Positions 34,659 through 43,643 of a DNA stretch of 43,643 bases are shown piece after piece. The stretch is from a virus. How positions within the stretch are numbered: the stretch's first letter is position 1; each line of letters opens with the position of its first letter. The stretch lies in IMG/VR virus record IMGVR_UViG_3300032163_001976, positions 1 through 43,643 of that record; one strand, written 5' to 3'. The translations under genes were made by a program, and so were the position numbers. The notes beneath the pieces were generated by a model. That model was given only the letters and a program-made list of their open reading frames with translations, was not told the origin of the DNA and did not search any database.

Positions 34659-37115
34659 ATGGCAGCGGGCAGCAGCATTCGCGCCGGCGCCGCGTATGTC
34701 GAACTCACTGTCGACAATACGCTCCTCATGCGCGGGCTGAAGCAGGCCCAGTCGCAGCTGAAGGCGTTCGGCAGCACGGTGTCCTCGTGGGGCCGCGACT
34801 TGGCCAAGATATCGGCCGTCGCCCTTGCGCCTCTGGCGCTATCGGCGCACACCTTTTCCGAGGCGTCGAGCGCAATGGCGCGAGTGCGCGGGATCACCGG
34901 CGCGACGGCAGAAGAGTTTCAGGCGCTTTACGAGCAGGCCAAACGCCTCGCGCGCGACGGCTTCTTCTCGGTCAAGGACATCGCAGCCGGGATGGAAGCC
35001 CTGGGCAAATCGGGTCTGGCGGCCAGGGACATCATGGGCGCCATCGGGCCGGTCATGGGCCTGGCGAGGATCGCGGGATCGGAACTCCCTGAGGCGGCGG
35101 AGATGGCCACGCATGCCATGCGCGCTTTCGGCCTGGAGGCGGGCGACGTAGGCCACGTCATCGACGTGACGGCGGCGGCCGCGCGGGCCGGGAAGACCGA
35201 CGTGGCCTCCGTCTCCGAGGCGCTGGCGGCGGCAGGACCCGCCGCGCGCGCGGCTGGCGCGTCCTTCGAGGACACGGCGGCGGCCATCGCCGTCCTCTCC
35301 CAAAACGGGATCGCAGGCGCCCGCGCCGGCCAGGCGCTGGCGATGGCGTACCGCAGGCTGGCGTCCGAGAGCATCCAGGACAAACTTGGGGGCGTCGATA
35401 CGTCGAGGCCGCACGCGACGCACTCCGGGCACGGCGAAAGCCCAAGACAGATGGAGAGCCGGGTGGACCTGAGCGCCCCCGCGGCGGGCGCGAAGAAGGC
35501 GCTCGACGACCTCAACATCTCCGTCGCCGACACCAAGGGCAACATGCGTTCGCTCGGCGACATCCTGGCGGAGCTCATGAAGAAGACCAAGGACATGACC
35601 CAGCCGCAGCGCGCCGCCGTGTTCTCGGCGCTCTTCGGAAGGAGCCAGGTCGCCATGCTGGCCCTGATGAACGGGAAGTTCGCGGAGACGCAGAAAGCCC
35701 TGCGGAATACCGAAGGCGCCGCCAAGACAATGGCCACCAGCATGGCCGACCCGCTGACCCAGGCGTTCGGCAGAGTGAAGACGGCGGCAGAAGAGGTGCG
35801 GATCGCCATCGGCGAGGCCATCGGGCCGACCTTGGAAAAATGGTTCAACGAGCTGGTCCGCGTTCTGGAGGGCGTCCGGCGGTTCGTCGCCGAGCACAAA
35901 GAGCTTGTGGTCTCCATCCTCAAGTGGGCGGTGATCATCGGGACAGTCGCGGCGGCGCTGATCGGCCTCGGCACGGCGGCGCGCATCGCAGCCGGCGTGA
36001 TCGGTGGGCTGCACAGCATCGTCACGGGCGTCATCTCGATCTTCACCACGCTCGCCTCGGCAGTCACGGCACTGGCGGTCTGGATCACCACGCCGGTCGG
36101 GGCGATCATCGCGATCTTCGGAGCGTTCGCGGTCACGATGTTCGTCGTGAGCGGACAGGCCGGCCAGGCGTTGAGCTGGTTGGGCGGCGTGTTCGGCCAG
36201 TTGGGGCGGGATGCCGAGACGACCTTCCAGGGGATCAAGGATGCCATGATCGCCGGCGACTTCGGCCTGGCTGCGAAAATCCTCTGGTTGGGCCTCAAGA
36301 TGGAATGGCAGAGGGGCATCTTCTGGCTGACGGAATGGTGGGTCGCGTTCAAGGAGGTTTTCGTAGGCACGGCGACCGAGGCATTCTATGGCGCGGTCAA
36401 AGTCCTGGCGGGCGCGTGGGATGGATTGCGCGCGCTGTGGGTCATCATCGTCGGGTTTCTCTCCAACGTCTGGCAGACCTTCACCGGCGGGATCATCAAG
36501 GCGTGGAACGTCGTGGCCGGCGCGCTGTTGAAAGCGTGGACGCAGCTGAAGGGCCTCTTCAGCGACAAAGTGGACGTGAAGCTGGAGACGGCGCGCATTG
36601 ATTCTGAGACGCAACAGAAGAATCAGACCGTGGACGCCGACCGCCGGAGGTCGCAGCAGGAATACGACGAGCGGCTGGGGAAGATCGGCCAGGACTACGA
36701 TTCCACCGCCTCCGAGCTGGACAAGGAGAGCGCGCAGTCCAAGGCCGACCGGCAGGCCCGCTACCAGAAGCAGTTGCAGGACGCCCAGGCCGAACGCGAC
36801 CAGGCCGAGCAGGAATGGCACGACGCCATTTCCAAGGCAGCCCAGGAGCGCGCGGCGGCGGAAAAGAAGGACAAGGCGCCGGAGGCGCCCACGATGCCGG
36901 CGCAGAAGAAAATTGAGGCGTCGGTGCCGGCGATGCAGGTGGCGCAGCAGCGGAACCTCGAAGCCCGGGGCACGTTCAGCGCCGTTGCGACCTGGGGCAT
37001 GGGGGTAGGCTCCACGGCGGAGCGGACGGCAAAAGCGGCTGAGGACACTTCGAAGAACACCTACAGGATCATGCACGACATCGAGGACGGCGACTACGGC
37101 GCGGTGTTCGATTAA
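34659..37115 (+). CDS. Tape measure protein
   Basis: The 818-residue protein fits TP901-type tape measures. An N-terminal helical domain has ARVRGITGATAEEFQALYEQ and AGMEALGKSGLAARDIMGAI. A conserved middle has MTQPQRAAVFSALFGRSQVA. Several hydrophobic helices follow between about 420 and 500 (IGTVAAALIGLGTAARIAAG, VGAIIAIFGAFAVTMFVV). The C-terminus is charged and coiled (DQAEQEWHDAISKAAQERAA). It sets tail length and is ejected with DNA. The segment near residues 245-270 (RPHATHSGHGESPRQ) is unusually polar and may be a flexible insert. Confidence 0.9.
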   Translation: MAAGSSIRAGAAYVELTVDNTLLMRGLKQAQSQLKAFGSTVSSWGRDLAKISAVALAPLALSAHTFSEASSAMARVRGITGATAEEFQALYEQAKRLARDGFFSVKDIAAGMEALGKSGLAARDIMGAIGPVMGLARIAGSELPEAAEMATHAMRAFGLEAGDVGHVIDVTAAAARAGKTDVASVSEALAAAGPAARAAGASFEDTAAAIAVLSQNGIAGARAGQALAMAYRRLASESIQDKLGGVDTSRPHATHSGHGESPRQMESRVDLSAPAAGAKKALDDLNISVADTKGNMRSLGDILAELMKKTKDMTQPQRAAVFSALFGRSQVAMLALMNGKFAETQKALRNTEGAAKTMATSMADPLTQAFGRVKTAAEEVRIAIGEAIGPTLEKWFNELVRVLEGVRRFVAEHKELVVSILKWAVIIGTVAAALIGLGTAARIAAGVIGGLHSIVTGVISIFTTLASAVTALAVWITTPVGAIIAIFGAFAVTMFVVSGQAGQALSWLGGVFGQLGRDAETTFQGIKDAMIAGDFGLAAKILWLGLKMEWQRGIFWLTEWWVAFKEVFVGTATEAFYGAVKVLAGAWDGLRALWVIIVGFLSNVWQTFTGGIIKAWNVVAGALLKAWTQLKGLFSDKVDVKLETARIDSETQQKNQTVDADRRRSQQEYDERLGKIGQDYDSTASELDKESAQSKADRQARYQKQLQDAQAERDQAEQEWHDAISKAAQERAAAEKKDKAPEAPTMPAQKKIEASVPAMQVAQQRNLEARGTFSAVATWGMGVGSTAERTAKAAEDTSKNTYRIMHDIEDGDYGAVFD

Positions 37116-37130
37116 AGGGCAAGAAAAACT

Positions 37131-37949
37131 GTGACGGCGACATTGTCAGAGAGCTTTTCCGGGCGGCGCGAAGAGGTCCTCAGGACCCTCGAAGTGCAAT
37201 ACTTCGTCTTCGACGCCGCCGACGAAGACGCTGTAAGACTCACGTGCGCCCAGGCGCCTGCCGCTGGCGGGCTGCCGGCGTCCGTTGACGGGTATCTGTT
37301 CGACTACTACTCCATCGAAGAGCGGCTCAACGACACGACCTGGCGGCTCCTGGCTCATTACAAGATGCCGCCGTGGCCGAACAACCCGCCGCCGGAAGGC
37401 CACTTTTCCTTCGATACGTCGGGCGGGACTCAGCACGTCACGCAGTCGCGCTCAACGGTCGGCCGTTACGGGCCGAAAGCGACGGACAAGCTTCAGGGCG
37501 CCATCGGGTTCGACGGGCGGAATGTCCAGGGTGCGGACATCACCGTGCCGGTGTTCAACTTCACGGAGTTGCACTGGTTTACGCCCGATGTGGTCACCCA
37601 GGCGTACAAGCTGCTGCTCTTCAATAAGACCGGCTGCTACAACACCGACTCGTTCCGGGGGTTCGATCCGGGATCGGTGCTCTTCCTGGGCGCTGCCGGC
37701 GACCGGACGGGTGACGATCCGACTGATCAATGGCAAGTCACCTTCCGGTTCGCTGCGATGCCCAACCGCACGAATTTTCAGGTCGGCAATATCACCGTCG
37801 CCTCGAAGCTGGGATGGCAGTACATGTGGGTCCAATACGACGACGCGGCGGACGATGACAACCAGCAGATCGTCAAGACGCCGGTCGCGGTCTATATCGA
37901 GGAAGTTTATCAAAGCACGCTTTTCGCGGAACTGGGGATAGGCACATGA
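37131..37949 (+). CDS. Distal tail-type protein (272 aa)
   Basis: It directly follows the tape measure, the usual distal-tail slot. It is beta-rich and aromatic: VQYFVFDAADEDAVRLT, YLFDYYSIEERLNDTTWRLL, GFDGRNVQGADITVPVFNF, WQVTFRFAAMPNR. I find no motif naming a family, so the call rests on position and composition. GTG start. It overlaps the next gene by ATGA. Confidence 0.6.
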   Translation: MTATLSESFSGRREEVLRTLEVQYFVFDAADEDAVRLTCAQAPAAGGLPASVDGYLFDYYSIEERLNDTTWRLLAHYKMPPWPNNPPPEGHFSFDTSGGTQHVTQSRSTVGRYGPKATDKLQGAIGFDGRNVQGADITVPVFNFTELHWFTPDVVTQAYKLLLFNKTGCYNTDSFRGFDPGSVLFLGAAGDRTGDDPTDQWQVTFRFAAMPNRTNFQVGNITVASKLGWQYMWVQYDDAADDDNQQIVKTPVAVYIEEVYQSTLFAELGIGT

Positions 37950-38156: not shown

Positions 38157-38771
38157 ATGGCCGACCTGACGAAGGTCAATAAGGGAGACGCGCTCCGGAT
38201 CCCGGCCGACACGTGGAACGCGTTCGTTGACGTGGCGAACTTCGTCCGCCAGCGGATGATGAACCAGGGTTCGTCGGTCTCCGTGCCGCCGAGCGACGTG
38301 ATCTCCTTCCGGAACGAAGACACGTCGAACATGCCGCAGTATGGCGTCGGCTGGCTGACGGACGCGGCGTTTCAAGGGTTGTCGGTCGTCAAGCAGCCGG
38401 CGTATCCGGGCATCTCGCGCATCATCGTCGCGTCGAAGCCGGCGGCCGCCAGCGCATTGGGCGCGGGCTGGACGAGCGGCCTGCGGCCCGTGCAGGTGAA
38501 CAACTGGAACGCGATCTCGGTCGGCCAGCGGATCGGCGCACAGGCGGGTTCGTGGATCGCCGGCTTGGACCCGCTCGGCCCCATGCTCGTCATCGGCAAA
38601 CTGAATTCTCCGCTCGTCGCCGCGCTGATCACCGGGCCGCGCGGCGGCTGCAAGATGATCCGCACTGGCCCTGGCGCCACGGCCGGCAGGCCGGTCAGAG
38701 TGCTCGTTTTCAGCAGCCGTTTCACGCTGACGCAGACCGCCCCGGGCGACGTGACCGTGAGCGGAGGTTAA
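38157..38771 (+). CDS. Tail-region structural protein (204 aa)
   Basis: It begins with a helix (IPADTWNAFVDVANFVRQRM), then is beta-rich (VISFRNEDTSNMPQYGVGWL, RPVQVNNWNAISVGQRIGAQ), ending FTLTQTAPGDVTVSG. Repeated Gly-containing turns and the position before the tip protein suggest a virion component such as a baseplate or fibre-attachment protein. No named domain is seen. Confidence 0.6.
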   Translation: MADLTKVNKGDALRIPADTWNAFVDVANFVRQRMMNQGSSVSVPPSDVISFRNEDTSNMPQYGVGWLTDAAFQGLSVVKQPAYPGISRIIVASKPAAASALGAGWTSGLRPVQVNNWNAISVGQRIGAQAGSWIAGLDPLGPMLVIGKLNSPLVAALITGPRGGCKMIRTGPGATAGRPVRVLVFSSRFTLTQTAPGDVTVSGG

Positions 38772-38934: not shown

Positions 38935-41900
38935 ATGCAAGCTTTGTTTCTGGTGCTGCTCATGTCCCTGAGCACTGATTTCTGGCAGCGCGTTCCGGTG
39001 CCGGCTTTCGGCGATCTGGGGCTGAACTGGACGCAGTACCAGTTGCAGGGGCAAGGCTCGTTCTTCGTGGTGGAGACGGGGACGCTGAACTTCGGCGTCG
39101 GCACGATCCCCGGCGCGCACGAGACAGTCGCGCTTTACTTCCGCCAGGCGCAGACCGGGGCACAGCATGCCGACTTCACGTCGTCCAGTCCCGGCTACAA
39201 CTCGGACGGGAGCGCCGCCCCGATCTTCGGCTTCAGCGGCCCGGTCATTCGCGGCCAGGACAAGGACAATTTTTATTTCGGCGGGACGCGATGGACGTTT
39301 TCGTATTCCATGATCCAGCAGACAGTGGCCACGACATGGTCGCTCTACTTGCAGCAAGGCAGGAACGCCTGGTATCTGGGGTACAACTGCACATATCCCC
39401 CGGCTGGCTTTACCTGCTGGAACGGGCACGCCTCCCAGAATCTGAACGACCCCACGTCCGGGAACGATTTCGATTACGACGTGGACAGCGGGGAACAGTT
39501 GTATGACTTCTACATTAAATCATGGACGCCCGGAGGCCTGATCGTCAACGGCGGCTCGGTCGTCATCGGCAAGCGCTCCGATCCAAGTTTCAGCAAGACG
39601 CTGTATCAGAACATCCTTGACCCCTACGCCTATGAGGAGAGCCAGCGGAGCATAATCCAGATCCCGGGGCCGCCGACTCTCGCCATCACGTTCGAGATCT
39701 GGAAGCGCGTCGGCGGCGTCGAGACGAAGCTCGCGTCCATGCCCGCGGGCGGTGGGCAGGTGGCGACGCGGTTGAGCTACGAGGCCGGCGTCCTGAAGCT
39801 ATGGATGCACAACGAGTCGACCGACACGGTCCTGCTCCAGGTCGCCGACTCTTCGCTCCAGACCGGCGACCTGGTCGGGATGATCGCGTCGCTGCAATTG
39901 AGCGCGACCAGTGTGACGACCGCGATGCTATGCACCGGTTGGGAAGCCAGCGGCGGCGACGAGCCGGTGTTCCTCGCGGTGGACAGCTATGGCCGCGCTT
40001 TCCCCGTTCAAAACCTGCGCAGCCAACCTGACATTGGCGCCCTGGCGAACGACGGCGCGGTCTTCTTCACCGAAGACGGCGGCGTCATCAATCTCAATGG
40101 CTTCCAGACGGCCGACCTCGGCGACCAGATCACGAATGTCATTTCAGGCGCCACGTTCTGCCGATCGGGCTGTCAGGCCGGATGCGAAATGGGCTGTGAA
40201 GGGACCTGCGAACTCGGTTGCCAGTCCGTTTGCCAGATGAGCTGCCAGGCCGGGGGATGTCAAAACGGTTGTCAGGCGGGCTGCGAAGCTGGATGCCAGG
40301 CGACGTGCGAGCTCGGCTGCCAGTCGGCTTGCCAACTGAATTGTCAGGCGGGTTGCCAGCACGGATGCGAGACCGGATGCGAAACAGGTTGCCAAGGAGC
40401 GTGTCAGACAGCCTGCCAGGGCGCCTGTCAGAGCTCATGCCAGGCCGGTTGTCAATCCGGATGCGAAACGGGCTGCGAGACCGGCTGCGAAGCGACCTGT
40501 GAACTCGCCTGCCAGTCCGCTTGCCAACTGAATTGTCAGGCCGGATGCCAGCACGGGTGTGAGACGGCGTGCGAAACGGGGTGCCAAGCGACCTGCGAAC
40601 ACGCGTGCCAGTCCGCTTGCCAACTGAACTGCCAGACGGGATGCCAGCACGGATGCGAAACGGCGTGTCAAACGTCATGCCAGGGCGCGTGTCAGGGCGC
40701 GTGCCAAGGCTCTTGTCAGGGCACTTGCCAGGGTGATTGCCAAGCCGGCTGCGAGTCCATCTGTCAGACGGGTTGTGAAGCCGCAGGTTGCGAGACCAGT
40801 TGCGAAACTGGTTGTGAAGCCGATTGCCAGACGGCGTGCGAGGCCGCCTGCCAAACCGGCTGCGAGGTTCAGACCTGTCAGACTGCGTGCGAGGTCACCT
40901 GTGAAACCGGGTGTGAAACCCACACGTGCCAGACGGCATGTGAGGTCGCTTGCGAAACCGGCTGCGAGACTCAGACTTGCCAGACCGCTTGTGAGGTCAG
41001 TTGCGAGACGGGCTGCGAAACTCAGACTTGCCAGACGGCTTGCGAAGTTGGGTGCGAGACCGGGTGCGAAACTCAAGCCTGCCAGACCGCTTGCGAAGTC
41101 GGTTGCGAGACCGGCTGTGAAACTCACGCATGCCAGACAGCCTGTGAAGTGGCCTGTGAGACGGCCTGCGAAACTCAGACCTGTCAGACGGCTTGCGAAA
41201 TCGGCTGCGAAACGGGCTGCGAAACCCAGACTTGCCAAACGGCCTGCGAAATTGCCTGCGAGACTGCTTGTGAAACTCACGCCTGCCAGATAGTTTGCGA
41301 AGTCGAATGCGAAACCGGTTGTGAGACGCACACCTGCCAGACCGCATGCGAGGTCGGGTGCGAGACCGGCTGTGAGACTCAGACTTGCCAGACGGCCTGT
41401 GAGGTAAGCTGTGAGACTGCCTGCGAAACTCATGCTTGCCAGACTGCATGCGAGGTGGGCTGTGAAACCGCCTGCGAGACCCACGCCTGTCAAACGGCTT
41501 GCGAAGTCGGGTGCGAAACCGGCTGCGAAACTCATGCTTGCCAGACTGCATGCGAGGTGGGCTGTGAAACGGCCTGCGAGACCCACGCCTGTCAGACGGC
41601 TTGCGAAGTCGGGTGCGAAACTGGCTGCGAAACTCATGCGTGCCAGACGGCCTGCGAGGTCGGATGTGAGACCGCCTGCGAAACCCACGCTTGTCAGACT
41701 TCCTGCGAGGTCGGCTGCGAAACTGGCTGCGAAACACATGCGTGTCAGACCGCCTGCGAAGTCGGGTGTGAAACTAGCTGCGAAGTGGCGTGCGAGACCG
41801 GGTGTCAGGTCGCGTGCGAAACCGGATGCGAGGTTGCATGCGAAACCGGCTGCGAAGTCGCCTGTGAAACCGGCTGCCAGGTCGTGTGTGAAACCGGCTG

Positions 41901-42513
41901 TCAGATCGCGTGTGAAACCGGATGCGAGGTCGCCTGCGAAACCGGCTGCCAGACGCAGCCGTGCCAGACAGGTTGCCAGGTCGCGTGCGAGACCGGCTGT
42001 CAGACTCACGCTTGCCAGACCGCCTGTGAAGTAGCCTGCGAGACTGGATGTGAGGTCACCTGTGAGACCGGCTGCCAGGTCATCTGTGAAACGGGCTGTG
42101 AGGTCGCCTGCGAAACCGGTTGCCAGACGCACACGTGTCAGACGGCGTGCGAAACCCAGGCGTGCCAGACGGCCTGTCAAACGCACACGTGTCAGACAGC
42201 CTGCGAAACTCAGGCTTGCCAGACGGCTTGCCAGACGCACACGTGCCAGACTGCCTGCGAAACTCAGGCGTGCCAAACGGCTTGTCAGACTCACCCATGC
42301 CAGACGGCCTGTCAGACGCAGGCCTGCCAGACCGCGTGCCAGACTCAGGCCTGTCAGACGGCTTGCCAGACGCAGAGCTGTCAGACCGCGTGCCAAACTC
42401 AGACCTGTCAAACGTCCTGCCAGACCGCATGCCAGACCGGTTGCCAGACGGCGTGTCAAACGGCCTGCCAGACGGCGTGCCAGGCGACCTGCACAGTGGC
42501 GGGGTGCCGATGA
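38935..42513 (+). CDS. Giant tail-tip protein with 188-cysteine C-(E/Q)-x-x repeat domain
   Basis: A 1192-residue protein. Residues 1-408 are beta-rich and aromatic, like a tail-tip or binding domain (FYFGGTRWTFSYSMIQQ, LAITFEIWKRVGGVE). Residues 409-1192 consist almost only of four- or five-residue units C-(E/Q)-x-x(-x), 188 cysteines by hand count, with Thr, Gly, Ala and Val at the other sites. Three zones follow each other. First come varied tetrads (CQAG, CELG, CQLN). Next are seventeen copies of a 17-residue unit like CQTACEVGCETGCETHA. Last are CETG/CEVA tetrads and nine-residue CQTHTCQTA pairs. The stop overlaps the SPASM enzyme start as ATGA. It is a probable modification substrate; disulfide- or metal-rich fibre is the alternative. 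Confidence 0.85.
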   Translation: MQALFLVLLMSLSTDFWQRVPVPAFGDLGLNWTQYQLQGQGSFFVVETGTLNFGVGTIPGAHETVALYFRQAQTGAQHADFTSSSPGYNSDGSAAPIFGFSGPVIRGQDKDNFYFGGTRWTFSYSMIQQTVATTWSLYLQQGRNAWYLGYNCTYPPAGFTCWNGHASQNLNDPTSGNDFDYDVDSGEQLYDFYIKSWTPGGLIVNGGSVVIGKRSDPSFSKTLYQNILDPYAYEESQRSIIQIPGPPTLAITFEIWKRVGGVETKLASMPAGGGQVATRLSYEAGVLKLWMHNESTDTVLLQVADSSLQTGDLVGMIASLQLSATSVTTAMLCTGWEASGGDEPVFLAVDSYGRAFPVQNLRSQPDIGALANDGAVFFTEDGGVINLNGFQTADLGDQITNVISGATFCRSGCQAGCEMGCEGTCELGCQSVCQMSCQAGGCQNGCQAGCEAGCQATCELGCQSACQLNCQAGCQHGCETGCETGCQGACQTACQGACQSSCQAGCQSGCETGCETGCEATCELACQSACQLNCQAGCQHGCETACETGCQATCEHACQSACQLNCQTGCQHGCETACQTSCQGACQGACQGSCQGTCQGDCQAGCESICQTGCEAAGCETSCETGCEADCQTACEAACQTGCEVQTCQTACEVTCETGCETHTCQTACEVACETGCETQTCQTACEVSCETGCETQTCQTACEVGCETGCETQACQTACEVGCETGCETHACQTACEVACETACETQTCQTACEIGCETGCETQTCQTACEIACETACETHACQIVCEVECETGCETHTCQTACEVGCETGCETQTCQTACEVSCETACETHACQTACEVGCETACETHACQTACEVGCETGCETHACQTACEVGCETACETHACQTACEVGCETGCETHACQTACEVGCETACETHACQTSCEVGCETGCETHACQTACEVGCETSCEVACETGCQVACETGCEVACETGCEVACETGCQVVCETGCQIACETGCEVACETGCQTQPCQTGCQVACETGCQTHACQTACEVACETGCEVTCETGCQVICETGCEVACETGCQTHTCQTACETQACQTACQTHTCQTACETQACQTACQTHTCQTACETQACQTACQTHPCQTACQTQACQTACQTQACQTACQTQSCQTACQTQTCQTSCQTACQTGCQTACQTACQTACQATCTVAGCR
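40159..42513 (+). repeat. Cysteine-repeat coding tract with nested periods
   Basis: Base periods of 12, 27 and 51 correspond to 4-, 9- and 17-residue units. Cys (TGC/TGT), Gly and Thr codons vary freely between copies, so most units are old and kept by selection on protein. One recent event is visible: 41422-41523 and 41524-41625 are 102-base tandem copies with three differences, all synonymous. The reverse strand is also open here, a by-product of composition. Confidence 0.9.
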
Positions 42514-43643
42514 CCGAGAGAATTCCGACATTGCAGATGGTCTGCATCAGCGATTCCCGACAGTGCAATGCGGGCTGCTCGTACTGCCCGTCGCGGGGCC
42601 TGCCAGTGAAGGAGCGGCTGCCCCTGCCCAACCTGAAGCGGGTGGTCGATTACTTCGTGGCGCACACCAACCGCGCCGCGACGAAGCCCCGCGAGCTGTC
42701 GTTCGTCCTGAACACGCTGGGAGAACCGACGCTCGGGATCGACAACGTGACGGGCATCGCCGATTACGTGGCCTACATTAATAGTAGCGGCGGCTGCGCC
42801 GTCCCTGTCTACTTCTTCATGTCCTCGACCAACCTCATGGACGTGCCGGACGGCGTGGTGAACTACGCGGATCGCCTCGGATACCTGACCGTGTCATTGC
42901 ACGGCCGACCGGCGGCAGAGTTCGTGGAGCGCCTCAGCCGGTTCGCCGACCGCGTCACGACGGAAGGTTCGCAGGTCATCCTCAAGCGCCCGATGAACCT
43001 CCTGGCCCGATACCGCGAGATCATGGAGCGCTTCGATCTGGCCTCGCTGTACCCGGTCAAGGCGGCGGACATGACGCTGGCGGATGCCGCTCTCTGGGTC
43101 GAGGAATTCTCCGAGTGCTTCCGGGCGCTCGAGCCGCTTTCCGACGCGGACCTTTCGGACTTCCTCTCCCGGCTCTCCTTCAACGACACGATCATGAACG
43201 AGCTGCGCCTTCTCGTCGTCGACGCGAAACTGACCCACAAGTGCGGCGCTGGAATCTTCTCTCTCCAGGTCACGCCGGAGATGGAGTTCTACCCCTGCAT
43301 GTTCACGCAGTATCCCGACCTGCGCATGGGCGACATGGAAACGGGGATTGACCCGGCCTGGTTCCAGCGTTTCGAGTCGCGTCGGCGCGCCGGCGCGGAA
43401 CCGGAATGCGCCGGCTGCGAGATCGTATCCGTCTGCGGCGGCTGCTGCCTGGACTGGGCGCGCAAGGACCCTCGTGGGAACGGATGGTTCAGTCCAACGG
43501 AATGCGCCTATCGGCGCGGCCTGGTCAAGGCGGCGAAGGAGTTCCTCGAGCGCGTCAAGGGCAGGCCGCTGATTATGAGCGCCATCAGGGACCGCCTCGA
43601 CCTGTGTAATCGGGAATGGCACCCAAAGAGAAAAGGAGAATAA
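42510..43643 (+). CDS. Radical SAM enzyme with SPASM domain, probable maturase of the Cys-repeat protein
   Basis: A 377-residue protein complete to the last base of the window. The SAM-cluster motif is CNAGCSYC (Cys19, Cys23, Cys26). The C-terminus has a full SPASM set: Cys245, Cys263, then CAGCEIVSVCGGCC (Cys300, 303, 309, 312/313) and Cys332, able to hold two auxiliary 4Fe-4S clusters. The body has LNTLGEPTLG, akin to the SAM-binding GGEP motif. SPASM enzymes install thioether, C-C or other crosslinks on ribosomal peptides, or oxidise Cys/Ser in sulfatases. The ATGA overlap with the 188-Cys gene points to that protein as substrate. No peptide-recognition RRE domain is evident. Confidence 0.9.
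   Translation: MTERIPTLQMVCISDSRQCNAGCSYCPSRGLPVKERLPLPNLKRVVDYFVAHTNRAATKPRELSFVLNTLGEPTLGIDNVTGIADYVAYINSSGGCAVPVYFFMSSTNLMDVPDGVVNYADRLGYLTVSLHGRPAAEFVERLSRFADRVTTEGSQVILKRPMNLLARYREIMERFDLASLYPVKAADMTLADAALWVEEFSECFRALEPLSDADLSDFLSRLSFNDTIMNELRLLVVDAKLTHKCGAGIFSLQVTPEMEFYPCMFTQYPDLRMGDMETGIDPAWFQRFESRRRAGAEPECAGCEIVSVCGGCCLDWARKDPRGNGWFSPTECAYRRGLVKAAKEFLERVKGRPLIMSAIRDRLDLCNREWHPKRKGE

Follow-up and report, generated by a model that had tools for sequence, protein, structure and literature searches.

The Cys-rich repeat protein encoded near the end of the viral record IMGVR_UViG_3300032163_001976 is probably a tail-tip or baseplate protein and the substrate of the radical SAM/SPASM enzyme encoded next to it, which, judging from the sequences, would introduce ranthipeptide-like staples between Cys and Glu or Gln at i,i+5. 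The window, that is, the whole stretch of DNA analyzed, is linear and 43,643 bases long, and the contig ends at the stop codon of the enzyme gene.

The repeat protein (1192 aa, positions 38935 to 42513, plus strand) consists of a non-repeat N-terminal region of about 408 residues (38935 to 40158, plus strand) and a C[EQ]xx array (40159 to 42507, plus strand), whose 188 Cys occupy residues 409 to 1191, a span of about 784 residues. As a sequence-only reading of the window had pointed out, Cys is followed by E or Q except at the ends, which applies to 185 of the 188, the exceptions being the first (followed by R) and the last two (T and R). Consecutive Cys are four residues apart in 153 cases and five in 34, and 185 Cys fit a rule linking Cys(i) to Glu/Gln(i+5 or i+6), with the last three having no E/Q partner. 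In shuffles of the same residues, 79 Cys (maximum 96) had another Cys at +4 or +5 and 48 C[EQ] pairs (maximum 67) were formed, versus 187 and 185 observed. Family searches with the N-terminal region gave no match, no relative of it was found in viral contigs, and NCBIfam has no match for the whole repeat protein or for its counterpart in L002.

The repeat gene is joined to the enzyme gene by an ATGA stop/start overlap (42510 to 42513, plus strand). The enzyme (377 aa, 42510 to 43643, plus strand), hereafter the window type or type "a," carries the CX3CX2C radical SAM cluster motif (CNAGCSYC, residues 19 to 26, 42564 to 42587, plus strand), which is invariant in three window-type and 21 phage enzymes, and the SPASM cysteines C245, C263, C300, C303, C309, C313, and C332 (43242 to 43505, plus strand). 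These conserved motifs, a TIGR04085 score of 37.2 bits (cut-off 27), and a predicted-fold match to 5why confirm the radical SAM/SPASM class, so that the overlap with a complete enzyme of this kind, also described in the sequence-only reading, stands.

Relatives were sought by protein search and then by scanning viral contigs with a DNA-level pattern of six C[EQ]xx units, which located C[EQ]xx-repeat proteins in about 25 viral contigs beyond the window. Low-complexity or wrong-frame arrays (CQCQ, CESN, CQGR) were split off by their diversity, leaving 26 viral records with genuine arrays, and the contigs split off served as controls. The sequence-only reading had named homologues that consistently lack a neighboring SPASM gene as evidence against it; the search was run and did not refute the coupling, with a PF04055 match in 21 of the 26 array records, a few of which are close relatives of one another, versus 4 of 50 controls from the same scan, taken without matching for host or contig size. 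PF04055 is too weak for the window type (E 0.0016 for G001), and therefore our own enzyme profile was added. According to the gene maps, nearly all array records have the enzyme gene immediately behind the array or within a few genes of it. Among the five PF04055-negative records, three contigs (G003, G007, and G014) break off within the array or at its edge, and in G013 a divergent radical SAM-like gene lies upstream, with the motif CSGGCVYC and QhpD-like at 2.7e-07. In the fifth, the 54-kb record G016, which holds three array proteins (L254 and L268), no radical SAM gene was detected.

The phage nearest to the window (L245) encodes a protein of 613 aa with 135 Cys and an enzyme 59% identical to that of the window. 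The protein search yielded one close relative, L002/L242, in which the gene for a 615-aa protein with 125 Cys immediately precedes that for a 62% identical enzyme; the gene for another radical SAM enzyme comes right after it, and baseplate genes surround this locus. The window, L242, and L245 thus share the gene order of repeat gene followed by SPASM gene.

The opposite search direction started from an alignment of nine phage enzymes (A6), with which 80 loci were fetched. Arrays were found beside nearly all A6 relatives of at least about 34% identity that had enough upstream DNA, including arrays at L300, L302, L304, and L306 and a short one at L307, loci that the repeat pattern had missed; the clear exception is L299, an enzyme relative without an array. 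Since the pairing recurs across unrelated phages in both search directions, the sequences support the view, already put forward for the window alone, that repeat protein and enzyme are coupled in one system.

Several further loci were encountered in these searches. The array protein at L300 (2 to 7975) comprises at least 2658 aa and is open at the locus edge, and two different array proteins lie near each other in one tail locus in L249, L253, L256, L257, L041, L081, L247, and L248. The planctomycete genome G331 encodes an enzyme relative scoring 310 bits, and the repeat pattern matches on a different one of its contigs. An initial genome scan with the enzyme alignment had given zero relatives. 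Two candidates were rejected: H1/MT835472 (L003, MT835472.1), which looks bacterial, with a SCIFF-type maturase among chromosomal genes, and Enterococcus phage 156, for which the match was short and of 26% identity. L004 (MT837480.1), listed in a phage collection, also looks bacterial and has a CXXX-repeat system beside a TatC-like gene.

The repeat gene of the window follows the gene for the tail tape measure protein (34659 to 37115, plus strand; 40% identical to that of L245) and two conserved tail-region genes (37131 to 37949 and 38157 to 38771, both plus strand; 56% and 64% identical in L245), and its protein has no tail domain match. Across the array proteins, at least five kinds of N-terminal region precede the array, with no similarity detected between them: the window type, a 700-aa type (L244, L251, L054, and L261), a type of 900 to 1300 aa (L094, L100, and L250), a 178-aa type (L255 and L258), and a large type with the motif LLPxIIRxxD. 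The gene of this last type follows a baseplate wedge gene in L249; the region has a weak match to tail protein I (E 0.0054, under the cut-off), and the best-ranked structures for its model of moderate quality (pLDDT 69) are phage baseplate proteins, at low TM-scores. L261, from a planctomycete metagenome-assembled genome (G027:C138), combines a 1390-aa array protein with a radical SAM gene and is probably a prophage locus, its neighbors being read as tail-tube and head-tail connector genes. The tail-tip assignment made in the sequence-only reading is partly supported, through relatives that are tail or baseplate proteins; the window's own protein, whose N-terminal region has no detectable family, is a candidate virion protein.

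The arrangement of Cys and Glu/Gln was counted in 39 proteins with 2106 array Cys. Because the pattern scan selects E/Q after Cys, the E/Q frequency inside its runs is partly built in; the register test and the enzyme-first search are free of this bias. E/Q occupies the position after Cys in 88% of cases (1718/1949) when another Cys lies three to seven residues upstream and in 21% (33/155) when none does. Conversely, where a run ends and the following seven residues are free of Cys, its last Cys has E/Q at +5 in 83% (65/78), versus 8% (31/390) at offsets 2, 3, 4, 6, and 7. Because the sequences are partly related, these counts lack full independence, and P values would exaggerate the case. The enzyme-found set behaves alike, with E/Q at +1 in 356 of 449 Cys with and 10 of 56 without an upstream Cys, and after run-final Cys in 25 of 43 at +5 versus 21 of 215 at the other offsets. 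Typical arrays start with CVSSCQ or CTSACE and end in CQTAFQ, CEVQQE, or CELQTQ. At array breaks, a missing Cys makes the E/Q five residues on dispensable, and the E/Q expected right after the absent Cys persists.

The register thus indicates that E/Q pairs with the Cys located five positions before it, or six (i+6) where neighboring Cys are five apart, a rule kept within most of the separate N-terminal families. As E/Q is missing right after the first Cys of a run and present at +5 of the last, the unit would be Cys(i)-Glu/Gln(i+5), repeated as a ladder of overlapping rings. The sequence-only reading had named the residues next to each Cys as possible thioether partners; E/Q remain the likely partners, but the pairing with the immediate neighbor has to be replaced by the i,i+5 register. 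E/Q dominate the partner site, from which D and N are nearly absent, and this points to Cgamma as the carbon attacked.

The best NCBIfam relatives of the phage array enzymes are the PapB, QhpD, and SCIFF maturases. The window enzyme scores 52.4 bits against the PapB family (NF047865, cut-off 340), 52.4 bits against QhpD (TIGR03906, cut-off 453), 40.4 bits against the SCIFF maturase (TIGR03974, cut-off 425), and 41.2 bits against TIGR04115 (cut-off 350), all far under the equivalog cut-offs, and the reaction is therefore not assignable by family membership. A sulfatase-type modification was set aside on a far weaker family score. Both by sequence profile and by predicted fold, the nearest solved enzyme is 5wgg/5why, which we take to be CteB and whose entry title concerns thioether formation. 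In the enzyme tree, the window enzyme groups with L242a and L245 in a separate clade (100/100), which is weakly placed, and ten other phage enzymes, including L242b, form a second clade beside a SCIFF-type maturase, with less than strong support (87/81). An N-terminal extension present in L242b and several other phage enzymes is missing from the window type. Both enzyme types are present in L242, where two tandem radical SAM genes with an ATGA overlap lie 3' of the array (L242:3482-6024); the window contig stops right after the first, and a second enzyme may lie beyond its end, as in L242.

Compared with known systems, the window system is best filed, on sequence features, closest to the NCBIfam pair of a CXXX-repeat target (TIGR04114) and its radical SAM maturase (TIGR04115), which has a similar plan but a different partner residue and enzyme family, the window system being far larger. 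In both, the target has Cys at every fourth residue and a radical SAM/SPASM gene nearby, and both occur in phage tail or baseplate loci: two gut phage or prophage loci of the enzyme-first set, L339 (512.9 bits) and L364 (654 bits), exceed the TIGR04115 cut-off of 350, the L364 target belongs to TIGR04114, and L364 lies beside baseplate genes. TIGR04114/04115 arrays have S, T, or G after Cys, whereas the window has E/Q, and in arrays of the CXXX class T is found at +5 of the run-final Cys in 10 of 22. A second phage class with Cxxx arrays of this S/T/G kind and a radical SAM gene was seen at L336, L338 to L341, L346 to L353, L357 and L358, L360, and L363 to L368, some apparently in prophages of isolates, and here R often follows the first Cys. 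The functionally unannotated PHROG phrog_6085 has a profile that matches Cys arrays of both classes (seen in L242, L250, L255, and L339). The RiPP-like system proposed in the sequence-only reading is hence less isolated than was thought, because NCBIfam already holds such a target and enzyme pair.

The SCIFF system (CteA/CteB) supplies the solved enzyme nearest to that of the window, presumably CteB, but its target is a small leader-bearing peptide with six Cys and a Thr partner. CefB (NF038107), a radical SAM/SPASM maturase also named after a regularly spaced target with Cys at every fifth residue, matches the phage enzymes weakly. For SCIFF, a Cys32-Thr37 bond spanning five residues was reported and initially considered an alpha thioether, whereas later work points to Thr34, the ring size being disputed (PMC8326336). 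PapB joins Cys to Asp Cbeta or Glu Cgamma, tolerating zero to six intervening residues and nested rings (PMC9413430), so that the PapA/PapB pair (freyrasin) resembles the window in its several Cys-Asp/Glu thioethers and possible nesting but differs in its CX3D spacing, small peptide, and six bonds. QhpD makes Cys-Glu S-Cgamma bonds in QhpC, a functional protein subunit and no peptide antibiotic (PMC8326336), although these are few and lie in a dehydrogenase subunit without an array. By comparison of these systems, the nearest enzyme relatives (SCIFF/CteB, PapB, and QhpD) all make non-alpha Cys thioethers. Ranthipeptide precursors are short and have a leader, unlike the window target with 1192 aa and its array at the C-terminus.

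Radical SAM/SPASM enzymes differ in the carbon they attack, and the disputed history of the SCIFF bond (PMC8326336) is a reminder that the enzyme could modify the array via another bond, be it a sactionine or a different ring distance, with the Glu/Gln at i+5 being a recognition or positioning residue. We consider this unlikely, though the strongest of the alternatives, as the nearest enzyme families are all non-alpha and a strict two-methylene acid or amide at i+5, retained past the last Cys, better fits a bonding partner. Other Cys-rich repeats are usually disulfide or metal sites, and the array might be a disulfide-bonded or metal-binding fiber, with the radical SAM enzyme having a different target; this is improbable given the recurrence of enzyme and array across unrelated N-terminal regions in both search directions, and it leaves unexplained why the first Cys is free of E/Q and the last keeps one at +5. 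Repeats this regular could also fold so that the Glu/Gln at i+5 is a structural trait, for example, of a solenoid side-chain ladder with only occasional modifications. The Cys spacing, however, ranges from three to six across the arrays and the E/Q moves along with each shift, which a rigid solenoid would tolerate poorly, making this a very improbable reading.

Regarding the DNA itself, the array Cys of the window are encoded by 129 TGC and 59 TGT codons, and codons 17 residues apart differ 24, 31, and 177 times at the first, second, and third positions, with 143 synonymous versus 52 non-synonymous changes. Because third-position differences dominate and Cys is kept while its codon varies, the array is, by its codon pattern, under selection at the protein level. 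Long repeats assemble poorly, several contigs end inside arrays, and low-complexity arrays elsewhere do fit the DNA pattern, but an assembly or reading-frame artefact from a tandem DNA repeat has hardly any probability left in view of this synonymous drift with fixed Cys, the preserved order of the genes around the arrays of L242 and L245, the homologous arrays in independent assemblies, and the relatives that keep the protein frame with different DNA, the exact copy number alone staying uncertain.

Returning to Cys-Glu/Gln thioethers, non-alpha bonds of this kind are the most likely product because of the enzyme kinship and the i,i+5 rule. From the observed pairing, register, kinship, and baseplate context of the relatives, we infer the bond and the carbon attacked, as well as the rod with its mechanical role, as follows. 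The repeat protein would serve as a structural component of the tail tip or baseplate, and its Cys array would be modified by the radical SAM/SPASM enzyme encoded next to it, perhaps together with a second enzyme whose gene lies past the contig end. SAM would be cleaved and a hydrogen abstracted from the Glu/Gln side chain, most likely at Cgamma, next to the carboxyl or amide, whereupon the Cys located five positions earlier would close the thioether with its thiol, bound to a SPASM cluster. As many as 185 i,i+5 rings would overlap along the array, with the next Cys lying inside each ring, and the stapled array could form a stiff, reduction-proof, and protease-resistant rod.

As arrays with E/Q five residues on adjoin a radical SAM enzyme of a Cys-joining type, parts of the virion are probably covalently stapled along their length in many unrelated phages. 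It appears reasonably likely that several unrelated phage lineages staple a baseplate or tail-fiber protein of the virion with a ladder of overlapping Cys-Glu/Gln thioethers, numbering from some tens to almost two hundred. Such a ladder would be a radical SAM modification of the RiPP type applied to a structural protein of a virus, and it would far exceed any other crosslink array of this sort in length. In the literature that we searched, no paper names a link between phage radical SAM enzymes and Cys repeats, and papers outside that set may exist. The i,i+5 rule makes the system testable with a short array. If the reading is true, one or two enzymes would suffice for a long covalently stapled protein rod, offering a repetitive crosslinking system for protein materials. 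It would also account for a group of phage radical SAM genes that have so far been without explanation and help in understanding the CXXX-repeat families, and it would mean that radical SAM peptide chemistry builds virus particles besides small peptides.
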